Origin: Coptis chinensis
Taxonomy: Eukaryota > Streptophyta > Magnoliopsida > Ranunculales > Ranunculaceae
Assembly (NCBI GenBank): GCA_015680905.1
Contig: CM027378.1
Location: forward strand, 106,723,501-106,787,500
Length of the DNA stretch: 64,000 nucleotides
Direction: 5' to 3'
The stretch's first letter is position 1; each line of letters starts with the position of its first letter. Below the pieces are notes generated by a model. It saw only the letters and a program-made list of their open reading frames with translations, was not told where the DNA came from and did no database searches. Both the position numbers and the translations under genes were made by a program. Below, in pieces: positions 2,685-44,514 of the stretch.

Positions 2685-5600
2685 TCAATATCGAAGAAGA
2701 CGTAGTTAGGTCTTCGTCTACTAAAGCCCCTATTCAAGGCACGCAAACATTAGCTGCTCCTTATATAGGAATGACTTTTACAAGTGTTGACGAGGCAAAG
2801 ACTTATTACAAAGAGTATGGTTAACAAGAGGGATTTGAGACTCGTGTTCGGACGACTTCCAAGCAACAAAATCAGGTGGATTTGGTTAGTGGTTGTTTAC
2901 TGGTTTGCTCACGTGAATGGGTTTGAGATGAAGTCCGATCAAGAAATACATCAACTATCGATGTGGTTGCCAAGCTAGAATTAAATTATTAAGAAAAGAA
3001 TGCATGAAGAGATATATGAGAGGTTGCTCATAATGACCATAGTCACGGTCCGGTGACCCCATCGAAGAGAATTTGCATGAAAACTAACAAACATATGCCC
3101 GAAGCGGTGAAGTGCTTGACCGAGATATTTAGTGATAAATGGTTTATCCGTTGGGGAAAGTGGCATCTGTTTTCCATGGAAAGGAAGTTGGGTTTACACG
3201 CGAAGAAAGATTGTTGGAACCATTATTATGGTTTGACCGTAAAGATGCCTAAAGAAGGTGATGCAAAGCTGCCGCGGTTGCAATATTTTATGCAGAAGAG
3301 TCTTTGAGGATCTCCGGTTCTATTACGCTTATTGATTTAGATGAAAATGGGATTTGCGGTGAACTTTTCCGGGTTCATGGGAGGTCTCGATGCCGTATAT
3401 GAATATTTGGGGATGTTGTGTCTTTTGATACCACATATCGTACCAATGCATATTCCATGCCTTTTGCCCCTTTTACTGGAGTCAACCATCATTATCAGTC
3501 GATTCAGTTTGGTTGTGCATTGTTGCTTGATGAGACAGAAGATACATTCATATGGCTATTTAAGGCCTGGCTTGCAGCCATGGGTGGTCGTGCGCCAACT
3601 GCAATCATCACTGACCAGGATAGAGCGATGACAGCAGCCATTGCCAAAGTGTTTCCTAATACTCGTCATCGTTACTGTCTTTGGCATATTATGCAGAAAT
3701 TCCAAGAGAAGATGTCATTTACCAAATTTGAGACATTGGTGGCGAGGTTGAAGAACACTATTTCTTTTAGTATAGGATTGTTGATTTTGAGAGAAGATGG
3801 TGTACAATCATTGAGAAGTATGAGTTGTCCGAAAATCCTTGGTTGACAGAGATATATTCAATGCACGGGAGAAATGGGTTCCTTGTTATCTCAAGATAGC
3901 ACCTTTTTTCTTTGGTACTAATCGGGTCGAAGTGAATCGATGAATGCTCATTATGACTAGTTTGTCAATTCGACGACTAACGCTTTATGCGGTTTGTACA
4001 TGGTAATGAGAAGTCTTTGGCTTTGCTTGCTAGGAAAGAAAGAGATTCTCGATTACCACACCGAAAGCATAGTTCACTTGATTGTGCCTAACGATGCTTT
4101 CATCCTTATGCATGCCTTGAAGGTCTATCGATCTCAATATTCAATAAATTTAAAGAACAACTAGAAAAGGCAAAGATGGAGTACAAAATTGATGGGGAAC
4201 AAATTGGCCAATGTATGGAACCGAAGCTACATGGTGAAATGGAGAGACCCGTTTGAAGAATTCTGTTTGGAGAGTGAGTTTCGATAGAGGAACCTTAGAG
4301 GAGAATGAATGCAAGTACTTTCAGTTTATGGGTTTGCTTTGTGGTCATATCTTAAAGGTTTTATGCGCTTCTGAGATTGAAGAGATTCCAAACCATTTTA
4401 GATTGACGCGGTGGATGCAAAAGTCTAACACTTATAGATGGGAGTTTGATCTTTGGATTTGTGGTGGGGAATGTCTCAAATGAACCTTTGAGAGTGGCTC
4501 ATTCTATCAAGGTTGCTTCAAGTGTGAAACTTACGATCGTCGCGATACTTTTGAGGGTTATTCATATTTTATTGAAAAGATTGGTGAAATGGCTATTGAA
4601 ATTTCAAAGTTTAATGAGACTTCCTACAAAGGAGGCTTGAAGTTCAGAGCCTCAATTCTTGAGCCTCGGTTCTGAGAGCCTTGATACCTTCGGTTAATAC
4701 ATCACGAGGTTTTTTATTTGAATGTTTAATTTGATATAAATTTAGTGTTTAATTCGGTGTTTAATTTGATATAAATATTTATTTTAATTCGGTCTTTATT
4801 TCAGCTATTGATTTTGAATCCCAACATTTTTCAAACAAAGGGAAGAAGAAAGCGGATAGATGGAAATCCCCCAAAGAGATAGCCCTAAACAATTCGGGGA
4901 AGAAAGTGTCACAGATGTGGACGATTGCTAACCATGACTCCTCGAGAAATTGTCGAGAGGAGAAAAATAATAACGTAATCTGTCGATTGTAAGTATAGCT
5001 TTATTCAAAACTCTTTGATTCTAAATGTTCACTAGTTCTAATGATATTTTATCTGGCGTCATGGACTTCATTGATGTTTGGACTTGTTAAGAGTGGTTTA
5101 GATATGGCACCTTGTTAGAGTTTTATCAAGTGTTGTTAAGTTGAACTATGTCGAGGGTTGTGTTCCATTGCATCATTATGTCCATTGGATAGTATCTAAT
5201 GTTGTGCGCTAGCTAGGCTCTAGATAGGAAACATCATAATGATAGACCGGTGCTTTTTGATAACTTCTTTCTCCCTTTTTATTTTCAAAGTTCAATATTC
5301 TTGGTTTAGGTTACATTTGGGGAGTTTAATTAGAATGATGTTCTAATCTCATTGATGTTGTAGAAAAGAGAAGTATGGCTCAAGGAGAAATGGAGAATCT
5401 GGGAGGCAAAGCTTTGCTTTAGGTAAAAATACTGCCTACTCATCCATTTCGTTTCCAGCATTTTCGACTTTGCATCGGTCGATCTTCAGTCTTTTCATCA
5501 TTCTTTGCGGTTATGTTTTCGATTGCTTCTGAGTTCCACAAGATGCCACGTATCACTTTGCCACCTTGACTATGCACCATTTGAAGAAAAGGCGTCAAAA

Positions 5601-15904: not shown

Positions 15905-16690
15905 ATCGAAACTCTGACAGAGTTAACCAAATATGCTACTTCACCGAACTCTGTCAGAGTTTTGAACTCTGACAGAGTTCACCGAACTCTGACAGAATTT
16001 AGAACTCTGACAGAGTTCAAAACTCTGAGTTCAAAACTCTGATAGAATTCAAAACTCGGCGATGAAATTCACGAACTCGGCAGAATTTAGAACTCGACGA
16101 ATTTAAAACTCGACAGAGTTCAAAACTCGAGAATTCACCCGAACTCGACAGAGTTCAAAACTTCGGCGAAATTCAAAACTCGACAGAATTTAAAACTTCG
16201 ACGAGTTCACCGAACTTCCTCGAATTTAGAACTCGACAGAGTTTAAAACTCGACGAGTTCACCGAACTCGACAGAATTTAGAACTCGGCGAGTTCAAAAC
16301 TCGACATAATTCAAAAACTCGACAAAATTCACCGAACTTCGGCGAATTTAGAAGAACTTCGACGAATTCACCGAACTTCGACGAGTTCAAAACTCGACGG
16401 AATTCAAAACTCGACGAGTTCACCGAACTCGACGAATTTAGAACTCGGCGAGTTCAAAACTTGTTTCATACCCAATTCATACTTGTTTACTTGTCTAAGT
16501 TCATAAACAGTTGAACCAAGCGTTAACCAAGCTCACTATAAGGTTTAAAACGCTTTGGTTCAGCTGTTCAAACTAACTCGACAGTTCAAAACTCGACGAG
16601 TTCACCGGGATATGCTACTTCACCGAACTCTGACAAAGTTCACCGAATGTGCTACTTCACCGAACTCTGACAGAGTTCATCAAATATGCT
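15905..16690. repeat. Palindromic short-repeat array in right TIR
   Basis: Complementary version of the left array, with units such as aactctgacagagtt and gagttcaccgaactc. It is interrupted at about 16465-16590 by a different sequence. It is shorter and richer in gaattt variants than the left array, so the two copies have diverged or changed in copy number since the TIRs were identical. Confidence 0.85.
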
Positions 16691-16772
16691 AACACCTAAT
16701 TAAACACATTTAGCTCCTTGAACTGGACTTGCACCAACACCTAATTAAACACATTTAGCTCCTTGAACTGCT
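16690..16772 (+). repeat. 47-bp-spaced direct duplication
   Basis: The phrase acacctaattaaacacattt plus tagctccttgaactg occurs at 16691 and again at about 16738 with perfect identity. A small, recent local duplication inside the right TIR. Confidence 0.9.
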
Positions 16773-22906: not shown

Positions 22907-23172
22907 ACCTAGTGAAGTAGTTCATAAGTCATAATGTTATCTTTTTGTACGTTTATTTGGATGATTATGACTTTATGAGACACGTTTGGTTTGTTGAAAC
23001 TCTTATGTCATTTTGTTTGAGTTATGACATTAGGAGACATGCTATAATTTTACATAACTTTTGTGGTTGGATTACTAATATGTATTTTTAAATAAATACT
23101 GCTTCAAACTAACTAACTCGAGAGTTATCTTTCTTTTTTCTTTCTTATCTTTGTATCTGCGTAGGGGTAGAA

Positions 23173-23520
23173 TGTCATGGCCAATTCAAAAAGAGTGGAT
23201 TCATGAACCAGACCAAGTGAGCACCGTATATAGAGAAGGGGTAGCTGATTTTATTGATTTGGCAAAAAAAAAGTATGAAGGGTTCACAACATGTCCTTGT
23301 CCTTGAGTAGTATGTCGGAATGGGAAAAGATTGGTGTTTGACAAAGATCGAAGGCATATAGTTCAAAATGGTTTTGATCTAACGTATACCATATGGTCTT
23401 TACATGGTGAAAAACGATCGAAGTATCCTGTGGTAGACATAGTTGAAGAAGAAAACATTAAAGATCGAAGTTCGCAAATGATAATAGTTGTAATATGCAC
23501 TTTATTTATTTTTTGTTTGT
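23173..23520 (+). pseudogene. CACTA Transpos_assoc domain exon
   Basis: From ATG 23173: MSWPIQKEWIHEPDQVSTVY, then EGVADFIDLAKKKYEG and a CPCP motif, one in-frame TGA, then VCRNGKR .. HIVQNGFDLTYTIWSLHGEK. This is the pattern of the transposase-associated domain found at the N-terminus of plant En/Spm (CACTA) TnpD-type proteins. The main DDE domain that should follow is absent; the next coding block is of the Ptta (TnpA-like) kind. It lies just right of the hAT target site, which probably fell in an upstream intron. Confidence 0.75.
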
Positions 23521-37847: not shown

Positions 37848-37850
37848 TAT
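37848..37850. other. CACTA target-site duplication TAT (left)
   Basis: The three bases tat precede the terminal cactacaccataa and are repeated at 44512-44514 after the right end. Confidence 0.85.
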
Positions 37851-38517
37851 CACTACACCATAACAGGCTATTTGCAATGGCAAAAAAACGTTACTAATAA
37901 TTTTCGCAACGCTTTTTAAGCGTTGCAAATATGGCGTGGGTAAAGTGTTGGAAATATTTGCAACGCTTAAAAAGCGTTGCAAACAGAAATTTCCAACGCT
38001 TATTATAATTATTTCGTACACATATTTAAACCCTTTGCAACGGTTTTTTATTTCACAAACGCTTTTTAAGCGTTGGTAATTTGTTAAAATTTTTACCAAC
38101 GGTTTGTAACTGTTGCAAAGTTGTTAGTTAATTTAAAAAAAAATAATTTAAAATTCGTTTGTAACGGTTATAAACCGTTGCTGATGGGTTGCTAATAAAA
38201 AAAAAATATCATATTTTGTAGCGAGACCAGCTAAACCTATAATAAACAATGAATACAAGAATACAATAAACAATGTATCATAGTTGCCAATTGAAATAAC
38301 TGAGTCCACAACCATAGATGTTAAAAATTCTTTTTCACCACCAATCAGATTTGAAAAGAGTGAGGTCTTTTGTAAAAAAACTTTGAAGAGAGTGTGGTAG
38401 CAACAAGTTCCTTAATTTTGCTAATTGCCTGAAATATAAGTAGCAAACTCATGGCTTCTAGAATAATTTATCATGAACATATCCATCCAATCAAACCAAA
38501 AGATCTAAATTCCTTAC

Positions 38518-39050
38518 CAAATTGGAAGCAGCTCGAAAACTACGTACAAGACTTTGAGTGGACACCATCCTCAATGAAAAGTTTGGCCTCCTTTAAAAAC
38601 TCTTCCGCAAAAAGAACTACTCTAGTGGTTCCATCACCCACCTGTAGACAATAAATCCGGTCATTAAAATTACAAGTGAATTCCAAATTTATCCCTAAAA
38701 CCTAACCAATACAATTATTAATGATACCCTCTCAACTTTTTCTGAGACAATGTCCTTGTTAATGGTCATTATCTTCTCTAAAGTATAAGCTGTTAAATGT
38801 TGTAGTAATGCAACCATCATAACCCACTCTAAGATAAATATAAACTTTAGCATAAAAATTTCACTCTTTTAGTCAGCCAATCACTAAAATTAGTAAATTT
38901 GTTTTCTATTGTATACCTCGATTCTTGAGACTTGGCAATATCGACAAGAATCTTAGCAGCAGGATGAACAACATCAAGAAGTTTCATAATAGTAGCACCA
39001 TCATTAGAAATAGTAGCATTGCCCTTGTCATCATGAATCAATTTATCCAT
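38518..39050 (-). pseudogene. CCT-eta (TCP-1 chaperonin subunit 7) fragment
   Basis: Two exons on the minus strand. Exon 39050-38917 reads [40 protein letters not shown] and SQES. After a GT-AG intron, exon 38641-38518 reads [19 protein letters not shown] .. FIEDGVH, then after a shift [12 protein letters not shown]. This is the equatorial ATP-binding region of the cytosolic chaperonin CCT subunit eta, with the GDGTT loop preserved. Single-base losses at the splice junction and near 38560 break the frame. Only two internal exons of a gene of more than 500 codons are present. Confidence 0.85.
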
Positions 39051-39125
39051 TCCTCAATAAGAAACATATCGCAAGCGAGTTGCATAAAAGAACAATTTTA
39101 AATATCATAAATATGAAAGAAAATA

Positions 39126-39250
39126 GATCTACCTCGTTCCCAAAAGTTTCAATGAATTAGCCGCGATAAGTCATATCATAAATGTACTCTTTATGGGCGT
39201 CAAAAGAATTGCAGCAAGCACGTTGCCTTGTATCCCAAACCTATGGAATG
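39126..39250 (-). pseudogene. WD40-repeat protein fragment (WDR55-like)
   Basis: The minus frame VWDTRQRACCNSFDAHKEYI followed by YDMTY, then after a one-base shift NSLKLLGTR, has the WD40 pattern (VWD at the end of one blade, then F.AH..YI.DM). It is close to the WDR55-type family, where WDTRQRTCCNSF..H..YISDMTF is familiar. One exon is left, in the same orientation as the CCT-eta piece, with a splice-like end after GTR. The family call is good; the exact gene is an inference. Confidence 0.65.
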
Positions 39251-39637
39251 AAATTTATAAAGCATCGGGATAAAGAAAAGTAAGTAACTAGTATTTCATC
39301 AACGAGGCATATAAATGGAGTTTAAGATTAGTAATGACTAAATTGGATGATGAAGTCTAACAACAAGATAAGATACTTTCGATCCACTTTTAAGGCATTT
39401 GGTGCATTTGTAATGTGGTTTTGTTGTGGGCATCACCAATTGATGTACCCCTTTCATCATTCACGGTGGACTTGATAAGACCTTAATACTACCATTTGTA
39501 GGCTTTCATTAGCTTTCGTTTGTAACAAAAACGAAGCCGATGTTGGCGTTACACTTTTTTCCTCTACAAGATCTGCAGAACCCACGGTCCATCCTCACCG
39601 TGTTACGCTATACTAGTTGATTTGGAGGTTTTGTTTC
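39251..39637. other. CACTA interior, no protein recognised
   Basis: Between the WD40 and transporter fragments. The last 90 bases before 39638 may be the 5' untranslated region of the captured transporter, since that fragment starts at a good ATG. No coding motif is seen. Confidence 0.4.
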
Positions 39638-40390
39638 ATGGGTGAAGAAGAACTAATGGAACCCGATGCCTAGAAGCCACTATGAAAGCAAATCCAAAAC
39701 TAACACTTTTACCCCCTTATTGCTCTTATCTTCTATGAAGTCTCGGAGGACCTTTTGGGGTTGAAGATTCGATCAAGGCAGGGGGGGTCCCCTTTTATCT
39801 TTGCTTGGTTTTTAATTTTTCCTCTACTTTGGAGTGTTCCGAAGCCTTTAGTTACAAATTTGAACTTGCTACAAGCTATCCACGAAAATGGCGGGTATGT
39901 TCTCTGAATTTTAGCGGCGTTTGGGCCCTTTTGGGTTTTCGGGAAGGATTCCGGAAGTGGTTCGATGGAGTTCGGATAATGCACTTTACCCCCATTTTGT
40001 TTTCGGATTACTTGAAACGTTCTTTCCCAATTTTCAACCGGTTGATTGCTTTCGAATTCCAGCTTTGTTGGGACTTACTTGTGTCTTTGACATATTTGAA
40101 TTCTGAAGAGGACTCAATATTGTTGGGTTTCAATTTGTTTCCCTTTGCCTTCGCTTTTTGCCATTTTTAGTAATGGGACTTCTTTCAATTCCTCGAATAA
40201 GGCCTAAAAATGGCTAGTTGTTGATTTCAGTAAAGGTGGATTGGAGGGATACTTTAATAGTATGTTTTGGAACTTAAATTTTGGGATAAAGCAAGTACAT
40301 TGGCAGGGGAGGTACAAAATCCAAGCCGGATATTTCCAAAAGCTCTTCTTGGGGCTGTGGTTTTGGTGGTTTTATCATATCTTAAGGTAG
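39638..40390 (+). pseudogene. Polyamine/amino-acid permease fragment (PUT5-like)
   Basis: Starts at the natural initiator (MGEEELMEPD). With several frameshifts it then reads PLIALIFYEVS, LIFPLLWSVP, ENGGYV, GFREGFRKWF, DNALYP, DYLKRSFP, RIPALLGLT, LTYLN, LLSIPRIRPK, WLVVDFSK, then FWDKASTLAGEVQNPSRIFP and KALLGAVVLVVLSYL. This is the N-terminal half of a plant polyamine-uptake transporter (APC superfamily, PUT/LAT type), covering about 250 residues without visible introns. It ends at about 40390 with a splice-like aaggtag. It is the only captured piece on the plus strand that I recognise. Indels are frequent, so it is not functional. Confidence 0.85.
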
Positions 40391-40554
40391 TGCACGCTCT
40401 TATGGTATTTACTCCTAATTCAACCCATATTCTAATTCAACCCACACTCTAATTTGAGAGCCCAAACTAGCATTCACGATGACCTACTGTAAACCCAATA
40501 CAAATAAGATGATTTATCAGCAGAAACTACCAATTAAAGAGTAGCATCACTAAC

Positions 40555-40810
40555 CTTGAAAAGTTGGAGGCAGGCAACCCAAAGTAAGTTCTTCAAACTC
40601 CACTGAATCAATTTTATATTTTGGAATTTGCTCAGCTATAATGGGCTTTGCAATATTCTTTGCAGTCTTGCAGATGGCCTAAACAACAAACGTCAACAAT
40701 TAACCCATCAAAAAGAGTATTAGAAGACACTTGCATGATTAATAATTTTATAAGCTTTAGCACACACCTTGTCCAGATAAGGCCACATGAGTTCAAACAT
40801 TCCAATCAAC
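40555..40810 (-). pseudogene. Plant synaptotagmin fragment (SMP domain)
   Basis: Exon 40810-40768 reads LIGMFELMWPYLDK. After an intron with GT-AG borders, exon 40678-40555 reads AICKTAKNIAKPIIAEQIPK, YKIDSVEFEELTLG and CLPPTFQG, ending at another donor. This is the start of the SMP lipid-binding domain of plant synaptotagmins (ER-plasma-membrane contact-site proteins), whose family text LMWPYLDKA and FE.LTLG.LPPTFQG is conserved. Both exons are in frame and undamaged over their length, which points to a fairly recent capture. Confidence 0.85.
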
Positions 40811-40879
40811 CTGAAAATAGTTTAGAGGACTTTTAAAATTCATATTCATGGGTATAAGTTTCCTACATCTAGAGATCTG

Positions 40880-41050
40880 ACTAAAAAGTTTTTTCATGCT
40901 ATTCTTGAACTCACGTTCAAGAAGAAGTAATTCGGAGGGCGCGTATGGTCATAACAATTATAGGTAGAAGAAGCTCGGATCCGTCTAGCAAGGAATGTTG
41001 TCATCTTTGGGAGTTGTTAGCCCAAGCACTACGTGAGATGGTCTCACAGG
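40880..41050 (+). other. Exon-like block of unknown origin
   Basis: The plus frame reads MVITIIGRRSSDPSSKECCH and LWELLAQALREMVSQ, ending precisely at a consensus splice donor (caggtatgt at 41047). It looks like one more captured exon, but I do not recognise the protein. Confidence 0.4.
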
Positions 41051-41243
41051 TATGTTAAATACATGTAAATAAAGGTAATTACAGACGATCATATCTGTGG
41101 TGTCTTGCGTGTCATATTCAAGATTTCAAGTACAAAAAGTAATTTTCATTGCACTACAACTCGGATGGTGCAATGAAAATTGTGGAGAGCACTTATATCT
41201 AACAAGTAATAATCAAACAACTCAAAAAACAATAACAAACTCA

Positions 41244-41525
41244 CCAAACTAGTCTTTTGATTCAGCAACAGCCCAGTAACTCTGAGCCTCACTTCTAGGA
41301 CCAGCATCTTTCCTAGTCTCCCCACCACTAAACAAAACTAAAGCCTCCTTGTCTTTCGACACAATATCAACCCCTTCCTTAATATGCCTCAAAAAAGTAG
41401 TAGCCTGTCCAGGATGTTTCTGATAACTCTCTAAAAACCATGAATCCTCCTTATCAACTTTCCCACAACTACTACTAGTATAAACCTGAATGACCCGGCT
41501 ACCATAGCCCTCGACTTAATTCAAG
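41244..41525 (-). pseudogene. DUF218-type protein fragment
   Basis: The minus frame reads VYTSSSCGKVDKEDSWFLES, YQKHPGQATTFLRHIKEGVD and IVSKDKEALVLFSGGETRKD .. GPRSEAQSYWAVAESKD, then a stop where tryptophan is expected, and a splice donor at about 41243. The SGGETR and RSEA-SY motifs are those of a plant DUF218 (YdcF-like) protein of unknown function. A frameshift separates the upstream LSRAMVAG part. One exon is retained. Confidence 0.65.
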
Positions 41526-41610
41526 CTAAATTTTAATTAGAAATCCTCCAAAAAGGAAAAATATTGGTGTATGAACATTAGCGTGCAATTAAAAAACATA
41601 AGAAACCTAC

Positions 41611-41875
41611 CTGCTTTCGGCATATGCTCTAAGAATAATCTTTGCAATAAAGCACCGGTGCAACTCTACCAATGGTTTCCCTCTCATGAGAAGACCTACC
41701 ACCACCCTACATTTCCAATTTTCAGCAATGTTAAAGAGTGTGCACAAAATCAGATTTACAACGAGTCGACTACTAGAAAAAAGAGGTCACCTGACTTTGC
41801 TCTCACACCGTACTTGAAGACATAGGTTGCATCTGCATGAGATGGCCTATAGGCTAGGGCCATTTCACTATAATC
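41611..41875 (-). pseudogene. Chorismate synthase fragment (two exons)
   Basis: Exon 41875-41791 reads [20 protein letters not shown] and KYGVRAKSG. After a GT-AG intron, exon 41706-41611 reads GGGRSSHERETIGRVA, then after a shift AKIILRAYAESR. Chorismate synthase makes chorismate in the plastid shikimate pathway; RPSHADATY and GGGRSSARETIGRVA.GA are its signature regions, which include active-site residues. A two-residue insertion (His-Glu) in the second motif and frameshifts inactivate it. It sits directly upstream, on the same strand, of the DUF218 piece. Confidence 0.85.
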
Positions 41876-41879
41876 CTGA

Positions 41880-42890
41880 AAAAATAGAATACACGAGGAA
41901 AGTTAAAACTTGAACCATACTTTTGATGACTTGTAAACTCACAAATTCTTCTATTACAAAGGATTAAGACTAGAAAGTGTAAAGGTCTCACAGGCCAATC
42001 AGCTTCCTATTCAAATGCTCCACACCAGCAATAGAATAAACGTCGGTATCATGGTCATGATCGTGAAAGAGAAGTGTCAACACTCCGACAAGACACAAAG
42101 ATTGACCCTACCGGAAGTTTATCATTAAGCTCCATGATGAAACTTGAGCTGGCTTGCTCCATGCTAGAATGAGAGAGCCACCGGTGATGTCATCACAGTT
42201 ATGGTGCTACTGAGATATTTACATCATTGTCGATGCGGGGTTATTTAGAAGACATCAACCGAAGCTGATTATAATTATCTACATAAGAATCCTAAACTCA
42301 AAGATGTTCTCTACTACTTAAAGCTTTAAGAGTTAAAAAGACAAGATATATTTTGCCACAACGTGATTTTTCTTAGAAGTAGGTATGATTGCCAAGCACA
42401 TTACTTAGACCGAGGGCTGGCCAAGGTATGGAATTCATACCTGTTCAACATATTGTGCTACAATTCTTTTTGTGTTTCCTTTAAATGTTTCTCTAGAAAC
42501 TAAGTTATGAGAGGAATCAATTAAAAATATAAAATACGATGATTTAAAGAAAAGCGGTCATAAAAACGAACGTAATATAATTGACTTTCAAATTAATAAA
42601 CCAAGGATAAAAGAAGACCTTCAGAGCACTCCATAGCTTAGACCATTAAAAGTTACTTGATATTTTGTGTGTACTTATAATTTAGAAGCTTGCGCCTCAA
42701 AGTCGACACTACTTCATTTGAACAGTAAATAACACCCTCTGAAGCTTCAATATGACACAAATTAGAAAGATGGTTCATTTATTCTTACATCTTAAAGAAT
42801 AAGACAGAACTATACTAGATAAAAAGTAATTTGGGTCAAATAAAAAATACAAAAGTAAACATAAACAAAAAAAAAAATTTTTGATCTACA
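41880..42890. other. CACTA interior, no protein recognised
   Basis: About 1 kb. A block at 42030-42200 has an exon-like, less AT-rich texture on both strands but no family I can name. The remainder is AT-rich and intron-like. Confidence 0.4.
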
Positions 42891-42894
42891 ATTA

Positions 42895-43235
42895 CCTGAA
42901 TAGGAGCACTATAATTGCAAGAACCATCATAGAGGAGGAGTTTCCAACAAACAAAAATCTGGAAGCGTTGTTGCACAAGGAGGCACGCTAAAGGGAACTA
43001 GGATGAGGGCCATTTTCTCCATAGGGTGGTTGTGAGAATGGCTGTGACCACCTTTACCAAACAAATATAGTATAACATAACCACCCCAAGTATTATGAGC
43101 AATAACAAAGCAAGTTTATGCCTTTGTTTCCTCGCCACGACAATGGTGTTTGCCATTGTAATTGCTGCTATGCCAAGAAGTGAAGTTGAAATGACATGCA
43201 AAAAAGCACCAAAAGCAGCTGCACAAATTCATGAA
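42895..43235 (-). pseudogene. Fragment of a polytopic membrane protein, unidentified
   Basis: The minus frame from 43230 reads CAAAFGAFLHVISTSLLGIA followed by AITMANTIVVARKQRHKLAL and a very hydrophobic stretch (LLLIILGVVMLYYICLV), that is, two or three membrane segments. After a shift near 43010 a third hydrophobic block (MMVLAIIVLLF) ends at a splice donor (caggtaatt at 42896). It behaves as a captured exon of a membrane protein; the family is not recognised. Confidence 0.45.
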
Positions 43236-43845
43236 TTAGAAATTGGCCGATTATAAATCATTCCTCAAAATGAAAAGCATAGATAGATCTACAACTAACT
43301 CCTTTGAGATATGAGAAAATGCTTACTAACGAAAGAGTTCTAGAAAGAGTCCATTTTTAGCACGACCCACAATGGAAAAAGGCAACCAATGTGTCGGAAT
43401 AAAAAGAATGTAGAAACAAAACCGTTTGCAATTCCACCTATTGTTGATACATCTTTCGCTAAAACTCTCCATTTCATCAATCAAATTCCACAAAACTCTA
43501 AGTGTCGATTAAATGAATTGGGTGGTGTGGTTCACCAACCACCGGATCAAAAAGAGGAATTAGATACCAAGTGACGCTTACAACTTGAGACAAAATATGG
43601 GCTGTGGACACTAACTAAAAAACAACCACTAGCTAAACATCCATTTCTAAGACACTAACTAAACAACCCATTTCTTGCAAAATATAAGCTAAGAAAGGAA
43701 TGAAAAAACGGAATTCATCCATTTCTTGCAATGTCGATAATTAGGACTAGTTAATTAAGTTAGTAACTAGAAGAAAATGAAAGATTATTACCTCAAACTT
43801 CAAGAAAAAATATTTGTCCAAAATGGACTTCCAAACTCCTTGTTT
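43236..43845. other. CACTA interior, no protein recognised
   Basis: A plus-strand open frame at 43389-43574 (61 codons) has no recognised motif and may be chance. The rest is AT-rich. Confidence 0.35.
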
Positions 43846-43849
43846 TCTT

Positions 43850-44420
43850 TTTTCTTCTTCTTCTTTCTTTGATTATTTGTTTTACGGTCAATATGGAATT
43901 TGATTTTGAAGAGTCGCGAAAATTAGGGATCTTGAAATAATCGCGGTGGTGAGAGAGAGAGAGAGAGAAAAAAAATATGTTTTATATTTCGATATTTTTG
44001 GTTTCCTACGTTCCACGAAATTTTTAAGTTTGTAACACTTCTCAACGCTTTTTAAAGCGTTAGCAATTAATGCGGAAATTCACCCAAATAAAGCAGCGGC
44101 TTTACAATATTACTAACGCTTATTTAACGTTGGAAACTTACTAACGCTTATTTCTTCTTCTTTCTTTGATTTGATTATTTACTTTCGGTCAATATGGAAT
44201 TTGATTTTGAAGAGTCGCGAAAATTAGGGATCTTGAAATAATCGCGGTGAGAGAGAGAGAGAGGAGAAAAAAAAATTATGTTTTATATTTCGATATTTTT
44301 GGTTTCCCTTTGTTGTGAAATTTTTTTAAGTTTGTAACACTTCTCCAACGCTTTTTAAAAGCGTTAGCAATTAATCACGGAAATTCACCCAAATAAAGCA
44401 GCCTTCTGACAACATTAACA
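43850..44420. repeat. Tandem duplication of CACTA right subterminal region
   Basis: A unit of about 300 bases occurs twice (about 43853-44150 and 44151-44420). Each copy contains ggtcaatatggaatttgatt, gcgaaaattagggatcttga, a gagaga run, caacgctttttaaagcgtta and acccaaataaagcag. The duplication doubles the subterminal hairpins on this side. Confidence 0.9.
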
Positions 44421-44511
44421 AGCGCTTATTTAGCGTTGGAAACTTACTAACACTAAATAACCGTTGCAAATCAAAAAGGTCGTGTTGTAAATATTCTATT
44501 ATGGTGTAGTG

Positions 44512-44514
44512 TAT
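44512..44514. other. CACTA target-site duplication TAT (right)
   Basis: Matches tat at 37848-37850. Confidence 0.85.

Follow-up and report, generated by a model that had tools for sequence, protein, structure and literature searches.

Host-gene fragments in a Pack-CACTA family of Coptis chinensis and their probable accumulation by element fusion

How does a small transposon come to hold pieces of several unrelated host genes? The mode of gene acquisition by CACTA elements is still debated on few examples, and the question arises for a 6,661-bp element at positions 37851-44511 of a 64,000-bp stretch of Coptis chinensis DNA (the window) on contig C2. The element is an intact, non-autonomous CACTA transposon whose host-gene DNA, introns included, was copied from unlinked loci, and its family comprises at least 37 loci with a common left end and differing interiors. 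We interpret it as part of a Pack-CACTA family whose elements grow when neighbours fuse and whose movement depends on a separate autonomous family, an interpretation to which we assign a probability of about 0.7. Captures in this family can be ordered in time, and the sister copies together with the source genes show how the pieces were added.

An intact element and the sources of its cargo

The element is bounded by 13-bp terminal inverted repeats, CACTACACCATAA on the plus strand at 37851-37863 and its perfect reverse complement TTATGGTGTAGTG on the minus strand at 44499-44511, and is flanked by a 3-bp target site duplication, TAT, at 37848-37850 and 44512-44514. Subterminal repeats with CAACGCTTTTTAAGCGTTG-like units lie at 37899-38190. 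Terminal inverted repeats, subterminal repeats and a 3-bp duplication place it in the CACTA superfamily; a Helitron was also considered, and was ruled out by the terminal inverted repeats and the target duplication. Joined with one TAT, the flanks matched 40 uninterrupted paralogous sites at 86-90% identity and nearly end to end (at least 372 of 384 bases; best 40 of 792 candidates scored in the 936-Mb, 116-contig genome), so that an empty site exists. A first-pass annotation had described a complete element of ~6.66 kb with these termini and no transposase. The ends, the flanks and the target duplications of sister copies agree with this, and neither blastn nor tblastn matched the 2,439-bp transposase frame of one sister copy, L020, to any part of the element, in a search made with this one transposase family.

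Four captured fragments could be traced to source places in the same genome. A CCT-eta fragment on the minus strand at 38276-39055 (element 426-1205; Pfam Cpn60_TCP1, 9.1e-30) comprises three exon parts and two introns, and derives from a host gene at C2:106062850-106063850, where it is contiguous (93.4% ungapped identity over 687 bp). Both introns are still GT...AG in the element, its exons show length changes relative to the host gene, and the match across the two introns bears out the earlier proposal that capture was from DNA. The transporter fragment at 39400-40380 (element 1550-2530), on the plus strand, has its source within C2:109587001-109591000 (96.2% ungapped over 963 bp), an intact-looking gene with frames of 346 and 190 amino acids and an AA_permease_2 match of 5.4e-29. 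Its membership of the permease family thus stands, while the name PUT5, given to it earlier, is presumptive, the library match supporting an amino-acid permease. A chorismate synthase fragment, on the minus strand at 41513-41929 (element 3663-4079; Pfam 1.3e-10), comes from C5 near 16.446 Mb (94.9% ungapped over 409 bp). The fourth source, C4:22515000-22516000, supplied two minus-strand parts, at 40795-40876 (element 2945-3026; 96.3%) and 41174-41506 (element 3324-3656; 97.0% ungapped over 331 bp), separated at 40877-41173 by DNA that is not in the matching C4 stretch and much of which is dispersed elsewhere too. This capture is real, but the label DUF218 once attached to it has no library support, PF02698 matching nothing in the element exon, the source exon or the whole genome (its control matched in 8 of 14 genomes).

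For a fifth piece, a minus-strand WDR55 exon at 39157-39240 (25-27 amino acids, E-value 4.6e-4 to 7.3e-4), the element match falls under Pfam's curated cut-off, but a host gene was located by profile match at C8:72841368-72841901; the profile match starts at position 119 in the best stretch of the C8 gene and at 121 in the element. The minus-strand fragment at 40376-40795, earlier called synaptotagmin-like, has no library support for that name: it gave no Pfam or PDB match even at E 10, and no close source was found, the best DNA outside the element family reaching 67-84% (33/33 and 35/35 candidates scored). Dispersed, decayed copies of this exon occur at 72-80% identity, among them L038 and L039; these two were first taken as paralogous synaptotagmin genes, but both have a stop in the exon and are therefore not sources. 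The ~1.6-kb interior at 41930-43532 has no assigned source, none being found among the best 40 of 73 candidates, and NCBIfam searches with four of its peptides and one source exon gave nothing convincing. The right arm, 43533-44511, contains a tandem duplication of ~300 bp (43861-44461) that is also present in the sister copy L002. As first described, all recognised pieces lie on the minus strand except the transporter.

Sister copies and nested breakpoints

The count of at least 37 loci with the left end includes the window's own, and three further places, apart from these, carry the CCT-eta piece. We read 24 copies, whole or in part. In 15 of the 17 with both ends recognised (at most two mismatches, the window's own copy included), the 3-bp flanks were identical, their sequence varying between copies; the exceptions were L019 (TCG/TCA) and L024 (ATT/TAT). 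L002 is a full-length sister at 95% identity, and L003 and L004 are ~91% identical over most of their length. By their interiors the copies fell into group A (the window, L002-L004, L009-L011 and, in part, L012), group B (L015, L018, L019, L021, L024), group C (L020, L022, L023, L025, L026) and group D (L016, L017), with single arrangements in L013, L014 and L028 and the right part alone visible in L027. Kept ends, varied interiors and host coding-gene DNA whose sources are still in the genome are those of a Pack-CACTA family.

The fragments form a graded series across the copies read, the CCT-eta piece being present in 22/24, the transporter in 18/24, chorismate synthase in 9/24 and the 41930-43074 part of the interior in 6/24; for L012 and L027, the two that lack CCT-eta, the stretch read contains no left end. 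This series indicates that the fragments were not all acquired together. Their breakpoints are nested and cut older cargo from inside. Eleven of the 18 transporter pieces begin at source base 1709, and the ends of the 18 are at 2701 (eight copies), 2232 (two), 2274-2328 (five) and 1975, 1908 and 1846 (one copy apiece). For chorismate synthase, eight of nine pieces begin at 1412-1419, and the ends of the nine are at 2078 (two), 1825 (six) and 1817 (one). Comparison with the sources adds an order in time. Sites at which the source differs from at least 80% of copies number 2 of 993 for the transporter (single copies, 1.2-5.1%), against 20 of 715 for CCT-eta (single copies, 3.4-9.5%), which points to CCT-eta as the first capture and to the transporter as one made not long before the spread of the family. 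The corresponding values were 10/656 for chorismate synthase and 7/523 for the C4 exon, with mostly lineage A sampled.

Other cargo was found in sister copies by a scan of 16 pieces, chosen by eye from 217 listed frames and run as 10 joined queries. It includes a ubiquitin piece in L014 (1.6e-11), a protein kinase piece in L028 (6.4e-10; 1.1e-45 to casein kinase II alpha in PDB), an XRN_N piece in L023 (4.9e-17) and a MAPK piece in L013 (PDB MAPK6, 6.6e-30; no Pfam match), while no family was matched in the scan by a second, presumptively CSB-like piece of L013 or by three pieces of L010, L019 and L017. L027 has prephenate-dehydrogenase-type (8.9e-11) and GAPDH (3e-18) pieces, which may be host flank, the stretch read of this copy having no left boundary. 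Sister cargo, nested breakpoints, the family of at least 37 loci and the hybrid copy described below all go beyond the first-pass annotation.

Diversity varies along the element without following the exons. Some stretches are unusually alike between copies, e.g. 38650-38900 at 99-100% in most, and constraint and independent capture were weighed as the cause. Between the window and L002, 2 of 1,050 sites differ in the left 1,050 bp, and 39/1,453 and 100/3,117 further in; the left arm of these two looks recently homogenised or newly shared.

Fusion with a transposase-bearing family and rival explanations

The copy L020 unites a window-type left arm (terminus, CCT-eta, transporter) with a transposase frame of 813 amino acids (Transposase_21, 5.1e-72; Transpos_assoc, 3.7e-20) and a DUF4216 frame, both on the element's minus strand. 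Transposase of the L020 type occurs in at least 39 further places, 38 at 92-97% identity and one at 77% (best 40 of 507 candidates scored). L020 is the only one of these 40 at most 20 kb from a listed left-arm locus, and the other 39 are all more than 20 kb from the listed left-arm and CCT-eta places. The first 130 bp of the right arm occurs without the other modules at 12 listed places, in four of which it precedes a listed transposase frame by ~1.8 kb. When lineages A and B are compared, right arms diverge by 9.6% and left arms by 5.3%, against 4.6% and 4.2%, respectively, within A, and 9.2% and 4.5% within B, values that would fit arms of different origin.

On these grounds, we propose that the element moves by the transposase of a separate, candidate autonomous CACTA family, the promoter-side end of which would supply the right arm. 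Two elements near each other would lose their inner ends, and the outer ends could then move as one element, taking with them the host DNA in between. In repeated rounds, older cargo would be truncated from inside and newer cargo added beside it, and the captured exons would afterwards decay without coding constraint. More tentatively, and at somewhat under even odds, the capture may be modular and self-renewing, cargo-bearing left arms repeatedly gaining new right arms, and at times an entire transposase (L020), through fusion with elements of an abundant, autonomous CACTA family, so that cargo is layered by age and the family could become autonomous again with host-gene pieces still in it.

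Several observations weigh against growth by fusion. No pair of neighbouring elements was seen as an intermediate, and the terminus read among the transposase copies is the left one of L020. Mid-segments occur without a listed left arm, e.g. at C6:38316213, C9:52481330, C7:27199369 and L027, and strictly one-sided growth of the cargo was dropped since loci with mid-segments alone exist. The 9.2% divergence of right arms within B leaves room for more than one right-arm origin, or for faster change, and the model has to accommodate this. The sharing of left arms is in part an effect of sampling because copies were collected by similarity to the window's element. Finally, L016 has at 3764-4044 (element coordinates) a piece of the window's C4 source gene with other limits, and its only partial overlap with the window's C4 piece implies that this source may have been captured twice.

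The sequence at the junctions between fragments, one with a 5-bp overlap, one with a 2-bp overlap and one with a 6-bp filler, is no less compatible with template-switching repair, and hence raises the alternative of interrupted gap repair, in which the break left by excision is filled from ectopic host loci with switches of template, so that a single event could bring in several fragments and no fusion of elements would be needed. Small, abutting fragments and the retention of both ends would also be expected from such repair. The series of 22, 18, 9 and 6 of 24 copies argues against it, as do the copy L020 and the right-arm divergence in lineage B, both of which point to the joining of arms from different elements, and we consider gap repair on the whole unlikely, if a serious alternative. 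That the fragments were already contiguous in one ancestral host locus has next to no probability: the sources are unlinked, on C2 (two places ~3.5 Mb apart), C4 and C5, with the WDR55 gene on C8, and breaks fall between the fragments in sister copies, so that a single-locus origin is refuted unless an outgroup shows linkage.

A different question is whether the element is a functional chimeric gene, whose spliced minus-strand transcript of captured exons is kept by selection. A spliced minus-strand transcript is possible: the family's transposase is likewise encoded on the minus strand, most pieces share this orientation, GT and AG are retained in the CCT-eta introns, and fragments in the soybean element Tgm-Express1 are spliced into transcripts (PMC1947982). 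The codon changes weigh against a functional gene. In the plus-strand transporter exon, to which the constraint test was confined, changes in 18 copies fall evenly on codon positions 1, 2 and 3 (73, 88 and 68), with 152 non-synonymous, 56 synonymous and 21 stop changes against expected shares of 0.693, 0.263 and 0.044, counts that are not independent since related copies have changes in common. Stops make up 9.2% of the changes, compared with 4.4% expected, and the CCT-eta exons have undergone length changes. With the transporter piece free of codon constraint, a functional chimeric gene is very improbable. C-to-T and G-to-A together account for 130/309 changes in the transporter and 159/313 in CCT-eta, shares that would suit cytosine methylation.

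Elsewhere in the window, 23169-23456 resembles the N-terminal portion of the L020 transposase (51% over 97 amino acids) and belongs to another CACTA element. Two arrays of short units, at 1055-2575 and 15940-16691, have a similar make-up and look like mutual reverse complements; a simple look around them found no CACTA ends.

Relation to known systems

Elements of this kind are already known, and what is added here is a well-resolved family with its sources, nested breakpoints and a fused copy. Having at least 37 loci, four source places, graded breakpoints and a fused copy in one genome makes fusion and template-switch repair directly comparable. The number of donors, which had seemed unusually high for one small element, is not exceptional. 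Tgm-Express1 of soybean is a 5.7-kb CACTA element in which five unrelated host genes are represented by exons and introns (PMC1947982), and the window element resembles it in holding exons and introns from several unrelated host genes; relative to it, the present case offers at least 37 related left-end loci with differing interiors and four sources found, and is known from DNA alone. Pack-CACTA and other Pack-TYPE elements are described, in the sections of two accounts consulted, as non-autonomous, with conserved ends, several donors per element and fused AB-type forms, and they are predicted to place new DNA internally and to fuse when neighbouring (PMC8903248, PMC13317346). The present family shares the non-autonomy, the conserved ends, the internal position of new DNA, the several donors and the occurrence of fused elements, and differs from those sections in that a fused copy joins a cargo arm to a transposase and that right arms can be traced to a transposase-bearing family. 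CACTA-like elements of Chenopodium likewise contain host gene fragments and, in the excerpt of that work considered, have single captured genes beside a transposase (PMC8978399), in contrast to the many donors, mostly without transposase, of the Coptis family.

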